Shown piece after piece: positions 12,476 to 38,693 of a DNA stretch of 64,000 bases. Below the pieces are notes generated by a model. That model did no database searches. It was not told where the DNA came from and saw only the letters and a list, made by a program, of their open reading frames with translations. Positions within the stretch are counted from its first letter, which is position 1; every line of letters begins with the position of its first letter. The DNA is taken from the NCBI RefSeq assembly GCF_010500835.1, contig NZ_JAAAMJ010000003.1, forward strand, positions 62,001-126,000. The letters are read 5' to 3'. A program made the translations under genes and the position numbers. The DNA is from Aurantimonas aggregata. GTDB lineage: Bacteria; Pseudomonadota; Alphaproteobacteria; Rhizobiales; Rhizobiaceae.

Positions 12476-12518
12476 GACATCCTCCTGTTCAGCGAACCGT
12501 CCTCTCCTGCCTTTTTAG

Positions 12519-12530
12519 TTGATATCAACC
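12519..12530. promoter_or_regulatory. Palindromic operator candidate upstream of the DUF899 gene
   Basis: GTTGATATCAAC is a perfect 12-bp palindrome 43 bp upstream of the DUF899 ATG. TTGATATCAA cores of this kind occur as ArsR-family operators in rhizobia, from general memory. No ArsR gene is adjacent here, so the cognate regulator is unknown. Confidence 0.4.
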
Positions 12531-12730
12531 TTTCCTGTTTCTGTCAAAGCGGCCGAGCGCCTCCGCAACAGGGCGCCCGCTTGCTCAGTGCGGCTAGCCA
12601 TGCCCGGATTTTTGGCCTATATGCGGCAGGCGCCGACTGACCTCGTGTCGGTCCGCGTATTCATGGCCCTCGCTGGACGACATCCCGGCCAAGGGCGACC
12701 GAACCCTCATTTTCCAAGAAAGGGATTTCG

Positions 12731-13000
12731 ATGTCGATCACGCTTGAGCGTAAAGCAGAGCTCATGAAGGAATACGGCACCAAGGAAGGCGACACCGGTT
12801 CGCCGGAAGTCCAGGTGGCGATCCTCACCGAGCGCATCAACAATCTGACCGGTCACTTCAAGGACCACAAGAAGGACAACCACTCGCGTCGTGGCCTTCT
12901 GAAGATGGTCTCGCAGCGCCGCCGCCTCCTCGACTATCTTAAGTCGCGGGAAGAAGAGCGCTACCAGACGCTTATCGGCCGCCTCAGCCTGCGCCGCTAA
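12731..13000 (+). CDS. rpsO: 30S ribosomal protein S15
   Basis: An 89-residue S15, the exact family length. It reads [20 protein letters not shown], then [16 protein letters not shown], and the 16S-binding region [20 protein letters not shown] followed by RRRLLDYL. It binds the central domain of 16S rRNA early in 30S assembly. An AGAAAGGGA-type ribosome binding site precedes the ATG. It is followed by pnp, the usual pair, but truB, which normally precedes rpsO, lies 26 kb away at 38.7 kb in the opposite orientation. Confidence 0.97.
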
Positions 13001-13304
13001 CCAATTTCGCTCCGGCGGGTCCTGGATGAAAACCAGGGCCCGCCGGTCGCATTTCGGCGCACCTGTGGTGCGCCACAGCCCCGGATCCCGCGAACCAGTC
13101 GCGGCGTCCGACCACCGAACGGTCATGGGGCAGGATTGCCGGATGCTTCCGGAAGACGTGGTGGCCAGCCACCGCGGCGGAACCGACCAGGGTTCCCGTG
13201 AAGCCTCCCGTCGTCTTGCCCGTGATGCGTTTCGACCACGAAACGCGCTCCGGCTCCGGCGCCCCAAGCGGGCACCACGGAGCGCAGGATGAAAAGGCAA
13301 GAAC
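13001..13304 (+). promoter_or_regulatory. Structured rpsO-pnp intergenic leader (three stem-loops)
   Basis: This 304-base gap has no gene but three clear hairpins. The first is a 14-bp stem at 13012-13025/13033-13046 with one G-U pair and a 7-base loop. The second is GGCGCAC (13056-13062) with GTGCGCC (13068-13074). The third is GCGTTTCG (13227-13234) with CGAAACGC (13239-13246). No T tract follows any of them, so they look like processing or stability elements rather than full terminators. In enterobacteria the pnp leader hairpin is cut by RNase III and then used by PNPase for autoregulation; an equivalent role here is an inference. Confidence 0.6.
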
Positions 13305-15437
13305 ATGTTCAATACCCACAAGGTGGAAATCGACTGGGCGGGCCGTCCGCTCACCCTCGAGACCGGCAAGATCGCCCGGCAGGCCGACGGCGCCGTGCTC
13401 GCGACCTACGGCGAGACCGTCGTGCTCGCGACCGTGGTGTCCGAGAAGCAGCCGAAGCAGGGCTTCGACTTCTTCCCGCTGACCGTCAACTACCAGGAGA
13501 AGACCTTCGCCGCGGGCAAAATCCCGGGCGGCTTCTTCAAGCGCGAGGGCCGTCCTTCGGAGAAGGAGACGCTGACCTCGCGCCTCATCGACCGTCCGAT
13601 CCGCCCGCTCTTCGCCGAAGGCTACAAGAACGACACGCAGGTCGTCCTCACCGTCCTGCAGCATGATCTCGAGAACGACCCGGACGTCGTCGCGATGATC
13701 GCCGCCTCCGCCGCCCTGACGCTGTCGGGCATTCCGTTCATGGGCCCGATCGGCGGCGCCCGCGTCGGCTACATCAACGGCGAGTACAAGCTGAACCCGC
13801 ATGTCGACGAGATGGGCGAGTCGAAGCTCGACCTGATCGTCGCCGGCACCGAGGACGCCGTGCTGATGGTGGAATCGGAAGCCCACGAGCTGGCCGAGGA
13901 CGTCATGCTCGGCGCCGTCATGTTCGGCCACCGCGGCTTCCAGCCGGTGATCGACGCGATCATCAAGCTCGCCGAGCACGCCGCCAAGGAGCCCCGCGAT
14001 CACCAGGTTCCCGACCGTTCGGCGCTCGAGCAGGAAATGCTCTCGATGGTCGAAGGCGAGCTGCGCGACGCCTACAAGAACACCGACAAGATGGCCCGCT
14101 ATGCCGCCGTCGACGCCGTCAAGGCGAAGGTCATGGCGCATTTCCTGCCCGAGGGCGAAGAGCCGAAGGCTCCCAAGGAAGTCGTCGGCGCCGTGTTCAA
14201 GTCGCTGCAGGCGAAGATCGTTCGCTGGAACATCCTCGACACCGGCAACCGCATCGACGGCCGTGACCTGAAGACGGTCCGCGCCATCGTGTCGGAAGCC
14301 GGCGTCCTGCCGCGCACCCATGGCTCGGCGCTGTTCACCCGCGGCGAGACCCAGGCACTGGTCGTGGCGACGCTCGGCACCGGCGACGACGAGCAGTTCG
14401 TCGACGCGCTGACCGGGACGTACAAGGAGCGCTTCCTGCTCCATTACAACTTCCCTCCCTACTCGGTCGGCGAGACCGGCCGCATGGGTTCGCCCGGCCG
14501 TCGCGAAATCGGCCACGGCAAGCTCGCCTGGCGCGCCCTGCGTCCGATCCTGCCGGCACCGGAGCAGTTCCCCTACACGATCCGCGCCGTATCCGAGATC
14601 ACCGAGTCGAACGGCTCGTCCTCGATGGCGACGGTCTGCGGCACGTCGCTGGCACTGATGGACGCGGGCGTCCCGCTGACCCGTTCGGTCGCCGGCATCG
14701 CCATGGGCCTGATCAAGGAAGACGAGCGCTTCGCGGTGCTGTCGGACATTCTCGGTGACGAGGATCATCTCGGCGACATGGACTTCAAGGTCGCCGGCAC
14801 GTCGGAAGGCATCACCGCCCTCCAGATGGACATCAAGATCCAGGGCATCACCGAGGAGATCATGCAGATCGCCCTCGACCAGGCCAAGGGCGGCCGGCTG
14901 CACATCCTCGACGAGATGGCCAAGGCGCTGTCGACCAACCGCGCCGAGCTCGGCGAGTTTGCGCCGCGCATCGAGGTCATGCAGATCCCGACCGACAAGA
15001 TCCGCGACGTCATCGGCGCGGGCGGCAAGATCATCCGCGAGATCGTCGAGAAGACCGGTGCCAAGATCAACATCGAGGACGACGGCACGGTGAAGATCGC
15101 CTCCTCGTCCGGCAAGGAGATCGAGGCGGCCCGCAAGTGGATCCACTCGATCGTCGCCGAGCCGGAAGTCGGCGAGGTCTACGAAGGCACGGTGGTCAAG
15201 ACCGTCGAATTCGGCGCCTTCGTCAACTTCTTCGGTGCCCGCGACGGCCTCGTGCACATCAGCCAGCTCGGCGCCGAGCGCGTCGCCAAGACGACCGACG
15301 TCGTCAAGGAAGGCCAGAAGGTCTGGGTCAAGCTGATGGGCTTCGACGAGCGCGGCAAGGTCCGCCTCTCGATGAAGGTCGTCGACCAGGCAACCGGCCA
15401 GGAAATCGCCGGCGACAAGGCCGAAGACGCCGCCTGA
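13305..15437 (+). CDS. pnp: Polynucleotide phosphorylase
   Basis: A 710-residue PNPase, normal length, that degrades RNA 3' to 5' with phosphate and forms part of the RNA degradosome. Two RNase PH-like halves are visible, the first ending near residue 210 and the second beginning near 310 ([20 protein letters not shown]). The active-site block is [23 protein letters not shown] domain with the GAGG loop ([19 protein letters not shown]) and an S1 domain ([20 protein letters not shown]) follow at the C-terminus. The ATG at 13305 is the last start before the conserved [15 protein letters not shown] opening. It follows rpsO and has its own terminator. Confidence 0.97.
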
Positions 15438-15465
15438 TCGGCTCCCTCTCTTCGCATCGGATTTT

Positions 15466-15495
15466 AAAGGCGCGTCCCTCGGGGCGCGCCTTTAT
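15466..15495 (+). terminator. Rho-independent terminator after pnp
   Basis: AAAGGCGCG (15466-15474) pairs with CGCGCCTTT (15485-15493), with extra C/G pairs possible inside the 10-base loop, followed by a T-rich tail. It also works as a hairpin for the convergent DUF1127 gene. Confidence 0.8.
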
Positions 15496-37561: not shown

Positions 37562-38160
37562 GCAAAACAATTCCCCGCCCCTGATCCCGCTAGGGATAGA
37601 AGTTCTCAATGCTTAAAACGGCTTGATGCGCTCAGAAACTACGCGATGCGTTGGAAGACGTCAGCTCAGCTGCACTCGCGGGAGGCTTCCCATCGACGGA
37701 ACCTTGGTGCGGCCCCATAAACATCTGGAAAACTCTGGTTGTCCCCGCACTTCGTCTTCTCCGCACTTGTGTGAGGCGGAAACTACGAAACGTGGCGGGA
37801 TGCGGCAAGCGGAGTCTGCGCTGAATCGTAAGACGAGCGGACTGGCTGTGGCAGACTCGTCATCCGTGTGCCCGCCGAAAGCGCCGCAACGTGCTGACGC
37901 CTATCGTTTTCCGCCGACGGACGGAGCGCTGCAGCAAAGCGCAAACATAAAAATCGCCCGCGGCGGGGCCTGCCCGCTTGACTCAAGGACTCTCCGGCTT
38001 TCGCTTAGCCAGCTATTCGTAACTACTCACTGACCTCTTACAAGTCACTGATATTAAATGGGGTTTTCTGCGCGCCCCCGGAGGGGCCAGAGTCGCAGCC
38101 GATCCGCGTGACAGGTCGATGACGCAACGGGCAACCTGCCTTCGAAATGGGCCACGAATC
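37562..38160. other. 600-bp gap between rpsT and the rhodanese/dnaA genes
   Basis: No gene is supported here. It contains two copies of GAAACTACG (37635-37643 and 37779-37787), two CCGCACTT words near 37745 and 37761, and a short AT-richer patch near 38030-38060. I find no exact DnaA box (TTATCCACA) or cluster of near matches, so I do not call an origin. It should hold the promoter of the rhodanese gene and perhaps of dnaA. Confidence 0.6.
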
Positions 38161-38190
38161 AAAAAGCCCGGCACGGGGCCGGGCGTTTTC
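38161..38190 (-). terminator. Rho-independent terminator of rpsT
   Basis: On the minus strand GCCCGGC-5 nt-GCCGGGC (38178-38184 and 38166-38172) is followed by five T residues. It lies 31 bp after the rpsT stop codon. Confidence 0.88.
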
Positions 38191-38221
38191 GATGTGGGAA
38201 GATGCAGCCCTAGGGCGGCGA

Positions 38222-38491
38222 TCAGGCCTCGGCGAGGCCCTTCACGCGGTGCGACAGGCGCGAGATCTTCCGCGAAGCGGTGTTCTTGTGGAAGATGCCC
38301 TTGGAGGTGGCGCGCATCATTTCCGGTTCCGCAACCTTGAAGGCGGCGGTGGCTGCAGCCTTGTCGCCGGCGGCGAGCGCCTCTTCTACCTTCCGCAGGA
38401 AGGTCCGCACGCGGCTGCGGCGGGCGGTATTGACGGCGGTCCGGCGCGCGATCTTGCGTGTCGCCTTCTTGGCCGAGGGGGTATTGGCCAT
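38222..38491 (-). CDS. rpsT: 30S ribosomal protein S20
   Basis: An 89-residue S20, normal length, starting [20 protein letters not shown] and [19 protein letters not shown], a lysine/arginine-rich three-helix protein that binds the 5' domain of 16S rRNA. Its own consensus-like promoter (38609-38637) and terminator (38161-38190) show it is a single-gene unit. In related genomes rpsT lies between mutM and dnaA. Here dnaA is near, but mutM is 27 kb away. Confidence 0.97.
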
Positions 38492-38608
38492 CGTTCGTCT
38501 CTTTCTGTCTGTCGATCAGCTTTTGGGTGGCGGCGCCGCTCGCGGCATCAGCCGCGCCGCAACGCAAAAAAACCGGCAACGTCTTCCGACGCCGCCGAAT
38601 TAGGCGCC

Positions 38609-38637
38609 CTTATAGGTCGCTTCACCGGCTCCGTCAA
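38609..38637 (-). promoter_or_regulatory. Sigma-70-type promoter of rpsT
   Basis: On the minus strand TTGACG (38637-38632), a 17-bp spacer and TATAAG (38614-38609) form a near-consensus housekeeping promoter, about 118 bp upstream of the rpsT ATG. It lies only 56 bp from the truB stop codon, close to the proposed right inversion breakpoint. Confidence 0.75.
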
Positions 38638-38693
38638 TCACCGAGGTGGCGGGATGGTTCCCGTGCGGCCCATCCCCGGGGAGCGAGGGCCGC

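Follow-up and report, generated by a model that had tools for sequence, protein, structure and literature searches.

We analysed a 64,000-nucleotide stretch of the Aurantimonas aggregata genome (contig NZ_JAAAMJ010000003.1, positions 62,001–126,000; hereafter the window, whose numbering is used below) in which a ~26-kb segment bearing dnaA, dnaN, irr and the fab and thi genes has very probably been inverted. On the left, the ubiB-ubiE-mutM block (7497–10909; family scans), which ends in mutM (10016–10909, +; family scan), is followed by leftward genes for a VOC or glyoxalase-fold protein (10913–11686, −; PF00903, E = 2.7e-19) and a DUF899 protein (11750–12475, −; PF05988, E = 5.3e-92). The segment opens with rpsO, encoding S15 (12731–13000, +; TIGR00952), and pnp (13305–15437, +; TIGR03591), continues through lysR, thi genes, fabI-fabB-fabA (22692–25424, −; NCBIfam for fabI and fabB), irr, encoding IrrA (26106–26681, +; NF045678, E = 3.9e-66), moeB, and recF and dnaN (33086–35441, −; Pfam), and closes with dnaA (35568 to ~37124, −, with an assumed start; TIGR00362, E = 4.5e-139, on the longer open reading frame (ORF) 35568–37460) and rpsT, encoding S20 (38222–38491, −; TIGR00029). 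The first uninverted gene on the right is truB (38694–39674, −; TIGR00431), beyond which infB and genes in the positions of rbfA and nusA are all on the minus strand. Protein families were identified by profile scans (Pfam, NCBIfam/TIGR), with fabA, rbfA and nusA named by position alone. These scans, which also agreed with the thiG and thiE calls, bore out the genes, coordinates and strands of an earlier note on this DNA, which had proposed that one inversion broke two gene runs usual in Hyphomicrobiales, truB-rpsO-pnp and mutM-rpsT-dnaA.

To compare the region, window genes were mapped onto seven genomes of the same genus and nine further relatives. The order mutM-VOC-DUF899-rpsO-pnp...dnaN-dnaA-rpsT-truB was common to the window genome (G000), A. 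endophytica (G001) and G003, a genome in one contig of 4,427,212 bp; the window showed no breakpoints against G001 over 42 genes or against G003 over 40. The truB of A. endophytica DSM 103570 was the closest named truB among the matches listed (96% identity). The breakpoint test discarded matches below 45% identity or 40% coverage and left out genomes with the region on several contigs. Exactly two breakpoints separated the window from each of the eight other relatives tested (G002, G005, G007, G030, G014, G009, G028 and G015; 15–34 common genes each), and in all eight the sole single reversal that restored the order was that of rpsT to rpsO. Inside the reversed block, 21 (G000), 19 (G003) and 20 (G001) markers were collinear with G005. 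Both old linkages, mutM-rpsT-dnaA and truB-...-rpsO-pnp, are kept on one contig in same-genus G002, G005 and G007, and are present on split contigs in G004 and G006.

A linkage census of 60 genomes scored truB followed by pnp within 15 kb and mutM followed by dnaA within 6 kb; genes on different contigs were not scorable, and mutM was found in 58 of the 60. The truB-pnp linkage was kept in 46/60 genomes, mutM-dnaA in 41/60 and both in 35/60. Only G000, G001 and G003 among the scorable genomes carried the new linkages, truB-dnaA together with mutM-pnp, and none of the 60 had just one new junction, some being unscorable because the genes lay on different contigs. In the best 80 named truB loci, the next sought gene after truB was rpsO in 67 and rpsT in a single locus, that of A. 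endophytica (none in reach in 10, only infB in 2). The three inverted genomes were monophyletic with local support of 1.000 in a tree of 12 genes from 17 genomes, some with missing genes, indicating a single origin. Because one reversal restored the order in 8/8 relatives and the new linkages were confined to three genomes, we conclude that one ~26-kb inversion (12.59–38.64 kb) occurred a single time, on the stem of the G000/G001/G003 clade, with a probability of roughly 96%. The core of the earlier proposal, that one inversion lies behind both breaks, is thus strongly supported by the breakpoint test, the linkage census and the tree.

Several observations weigh against this conclusion. G027 and G034, which have their own truB-rpsO separation, were placed nearest to the inverted clade (0.991), contradicting the genus grouping; we take their break as independent because both retain mutM-crotonase-rpsT-dnaA and truB-corA. 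The event is carried by three genomes only, with no intermediate among them. Turnover in both junction intervals prevents the breakpoints from being located exactly. Finally, in G002 and G005, which have the ancestral order, the corresponding intervals share words of up to 12 bp in inverted and 16 bp in direct orientation, figures that stand without a shuffle control.

The region is prone to frequent breakage. Relatives in which just one of the two runs is broken, which the earlier note had counted as evidence against a single inversion, do exist: G022 keeps only mutM-dnaA, and G052, G059 and G036 keep only truB-pnp. Neither old linkage is kept in G029, G033 and G054, and in G027 and G034 mutM-dnaA is intact and truB and pnp lie on separate contigs. 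As none of these genomes carries the new junctions, we read their breaks as separate rearrangements. Among named loci, rpsO was not within 10 kb after truB in Jiella (L032, L036, L037 and L040) or in Aurantimonas sp. (L034 and L035); these loci, too, lack the new junctions, and we likewise count them as separate rearrangements. In nine genomes (G017, G023, G024, G038, G039, G041, G047, G048 and G055), dnaA and pnp lie on the same strand within 60 kb, unlike in Aurantimonas and its sisters, suggesting that one run has been turned with respect to the other in further lineages of the order. Another small inversion of this region is seen in Aureimonas leprariae (L051) and A. psammosilenae (L052), where the fab-irr block points the other way with respect to pnp.

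Such breakage, together with a second inversion and a variable interval nearby (described below) and the breaks in G022, G029, G033, G036, G052, G054 and G059, lends something to the idea that each break had an origin of its own, as in a pair of translocations. However, gene order within the segment is preserved and its reversal is exact, and one reversal suffices, uniquely, making separate events very improbable. An ancestral window order, with the other lineages inverted instead, has in its favour that a reversal is symmetric and order alone gives no direction, but the old linkages occur together in more than half of the census, within and outside the genus, the window's linkages occur in no genome beyond the three, and the tree nests the inverted genomes within the rest; we consider this direction of change scarcely credible. 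Wrongly oriented contig joins in the window genome, which is in 95 contigs, can be dismissed with near certainty, as G001 and the single-contig G003 have this order too and the entire compared stretch lies inside one 350,474-bp contig of G000.

A single inversion being the preferred reading, we considered its two ends. The single-reversal test, combined with conserved upstream elements at both ends, delimits a minimal inverted segment of ~26.0 kb at 12592–38637. On the left, a promoter-like element of rpsO (GCTAGC...TATATG) with a conserved leader occupies 12592–12690 (+), and its TATA and leader GGCCCTCGCTGGACGACATCCCGGCC are invariant in 8/8 aligned genomes, on either side of the event. On the right, a putative rpsT promoter, TTGACG-N17-TATAAG, lies at 38609–38637 (−); TTGACG is present in 8/8 aligned genomes and TATAAG in 6/8 (TATAGA in G005 and G007). 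Consensus promoter scans listed neither the rpsO nor the rpsT promoter, so both calls rest on conservation. Judged by these alignments, rpsO and rpsT kept their conserved upstream sequences through the inversion, and the earlier suggestion that rpsT, with its own promoter, now stands directly after truB is favoured by the conservation of that putative promoter across genomes. The right junction interval between rpsT and truB (38638–38693) comprises the 56 poorly conserved bp between the rpsT promoter and the truB stop. An S15-binding leader 5′ of rpsO has been described for Alphaproteobacteria in PMC4137082; Rfam gave no match in 12476–12760, which contains the rpsO leader. Beginning ten bases past the rpsT −10 box, a terminator-like hairpin with a T-run (38573–38598, −) could be an attenuator in the rpsT leader or the terminator of the upstream gene. 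By eye, GC-rich stems with T-runs resembling it follow the rpsT promoter in relatives; the hairpin scan found one such structure, against 0.6 in shuffles. Elsewhere in the segment, a thiamine pyrophosphate (TPP) riboswitch lies 5′ of the thi genes (17706–17817, +), and its overlap with the first called thi ORF (17784) indicates that the start of this ORF was set too early.

The earlier note inferred the inversion correctly, but its left junction did not hold: this lies between 10909 and ~12592 and cannot be placed within 12476–12730. The left junction interval between mutM and rpsO (10910–12591) holds the VOC-DUF899 pair. We rejected DUF899 as an old neighbour of mutM, and with it a supposed ancestral run mutM-DUF899-rpsT, because none of the 13 relatives examined has DUF899 in the mutM-rpsT interval. 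The VOC-DUF899 pair as a whole was likewise absent from this interval in 13/13, and neither protein had a match in the fetched stretches of relatives other than G001 and G003. The interval measures 176–314 bp in six of these relatives and 913–1157 bp in seven, the longer ones starting with a crotonase-like frame (Pfam-confirmed for G034 only). Across the 60 genomes, DUF899 matched at E ≤ 1e-15 in 15; at this threshold G002, G004, G005 and G007 gave no match and G006 gave one of 49%. DUF899 and a VOC-like protein adjoin among other genes in G034, G018 and G023 and are separated by one ORF in G052 (VOC identified by eye in each), and a MarR-like gene, Pfam-confirmed in one case, lies near the two in three of these four genomes. 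As the pair is missing from the relatives' mutM-rpsT intervals and occurs elsewhere amid other genes, it looks acquired. The palindrome TTGATATCAA (12519–12528), the only copy in the window, is a possible operator of the pair; as in the window, it recurs exactly 5′ of DUF899 at three of these four other loci (L199, L200 and L202), and with one mismatch by eye at the remaining one, L201. The pair with its palindrome (10913–12528), elsewhere often near a MarR-like gene, is perhaps a mobile unit.

A further correction concerns the truB-rpsO interval. The gap between the two genes is small in many Hyphomicrobiales, down to 35 bp, and to that extent the continuity of truB-rpsO-pnp described in the earlier note stood, but in five same-genus genomes (G002, G004, G005, G006 and G007) the two stand 3.9–9.4 kb apart, with corA and further genes between them; G030 has a gap of 1.2 kb. 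Judging by the same-genus relatives, no directly adjacent, co-oriented truB-rpsO pair would have been split in this lineage. The claim that the inversion cut rpsO off from truB read-through is therefore not sustained, since the genes were already far apart in the five genomes and since inverted and uninverted genomes alike conserve the rpsO upstream element and its leader. corA follows truB in relatives, including G027 and G034, and was present in 7 of 11 genomes checked; it was not found in the remaining G000, G001, G003 or G030.

The three inverted genomes also share a second inversion, of gyrB to dut-coaBC, on the far side of the uninverted ubiB-ubiE-mutM block. Left of the window, the orientation of coaBC relative to ubiB is opposite in G000, G001 and G003. 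Compared with 115 kb of G005, G000 (126 kb, 57 markers), G003 (102 kb, 58 markers) and G001 (120 kb, 60 markers) each gave the block order 1, −2, 3, −4, 5, in which −2 is gyrB..cysK-dut-coaBC (~9–10 kb; ~40.9–50.0 kb of G000 contig C23, L210; family scans), 3 is ubiB-ubiE-mutM and −4 is the rpsT..rpsO segment. The reversal distance was 2 in each, and the only solutions were these two reversals, in either order; G007 (89 markers) and G002 (51 markers) had no breakpoints against G005. The single event of the earlier note thus accounts for both breaks that it described, but not for the gyrB..coaBC inversion next to them. The gyrB/ubiB interval, which takes in the opening 6.9 kb of the window, varies in length: ~19.5 kb in G000 (50.0–69.5 kb of C23), 10.5 kb in G003 and 38.8 kb in G001. 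In the compared parts of this interval, only the gene at window position 6983–7417 is common to all three. An rve_3 integrase-core fragment lies inside the interval at 6342–6542.

The main inversion reached from the rpsO upstream element to the rpsT promoter, with its ends between mutM and rpsT and within the truB-rpsO interval, and cut no gene that survives at the junctions. Within the same lineage, corA is not found any more, the VOC-DUF899 pair occupies the mutM-rpsO junction and the gyrB..dut-coaBC block, just to the left, was turned. We infer illegitimate recombination, by end joining or template switching, between neighbouring breaks as the likely route because a search of the junctions revealed no inverted repeats: the longest common word in the three inverted genomes was 10 bp, within the range of G000 shuffles. 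Among the four junctions of both inversions in G000, 14-bp words gave three matches, all involving the 19.7-kb gyrB/ubiB stretch, a count that has no control. A more sweeping account, in which both inversions, the VOC-DUF899 insertion, the loss of corA and the variable gyrB/ubiB interval are one complex rearrangement around ubiB-ubiE-mutM that reset the strand of dnaA, dnaN, recF and gyrB at once and made the site an insertion hotspot, seems to us doubtful.

Replication polarity was assessed in G003 from 40 samples, each of 20 kb (2,500 bases masked in one), with the arms chosen after the data had been viewed. The GGGNAGGG motif is oriented toward the terminus. Its strand counts were 56 to 4 over 17 samples (0–1.79 Mb) and 4 to 47 over 21 samples (1.88–4.12 Mb); neither sum includes the final two samples (3 to 2; 0 to 0). 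In Alphaproteobacteria rsmG lies near the origin, and in G003 it is at 4.116 Mb. Motif polarity and the position of rsmG together point to an origin at 4.1–4.2 Mb, 0.25–0.35 Mb to the right of the inverted segment, which lies at 3.83–3.86 Mb with ends that would not be symmetric about such an origin. The cumulative GC skew peaks at ~1.77 Mb, as expected of the terminus, but its low, which is rather flat, falls at ~3.1–3.8 Mb and not at 4.1–4.2 Mb, and this counts against the placement. If the origin does lie 0.25–0.35 Mb to the right, motif polarity makes it reasonably probable that dnaA-dnaN-recF and rpsT, once head-on, became co-directional and that rpsO-pnp changed the opposite way, and suggests that gyrB is now head-on. 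An origin (oriC) beside dnaA was considered and rejected, as E. coli-type DnaA boxes in the window were at chance (two found with at most one mismatch, 2.25 expected). Motifs resembling FtsK-orienting polar sequences (KOPS) were too few in the inverted segment to serve as an age marker.

The inversion is real, lineage-specific and of a well-known, ordinary kind. It gives one Aurantimonas clade a clear gene-order marker, and the pair of neighbouring inversions, by which dnaA-dnaN-recF and gyrB changed strand, could be a natural test of whether the strand orientation of replication genes matters; apart from this it is a routine genome rearrangement, for which we claim no fitness effect. Like the local asymmetric inversions of bacterial chromosomes, it flipped an unbroken block of genes where it stood, in a single lineage; it differs in that the Aurantimonas segment seems confined to one side of the inferred origin. 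The available portion of PMC5850607 has no passage on short, small or intra-replichore inversions. The event also resembles the strand-switching inversions of the leading/lagging-strand debate (PMC6220195, PMC9098844) in that it turns core genes around, probably with respect to the fork as well. In contrast to those, no one-directional advantage is evident, because the switch in Aurantimonas would go both ways at once, making dnaA-dnaN-recF co-directional and turning pnp, rpsO and gyrB head-on.

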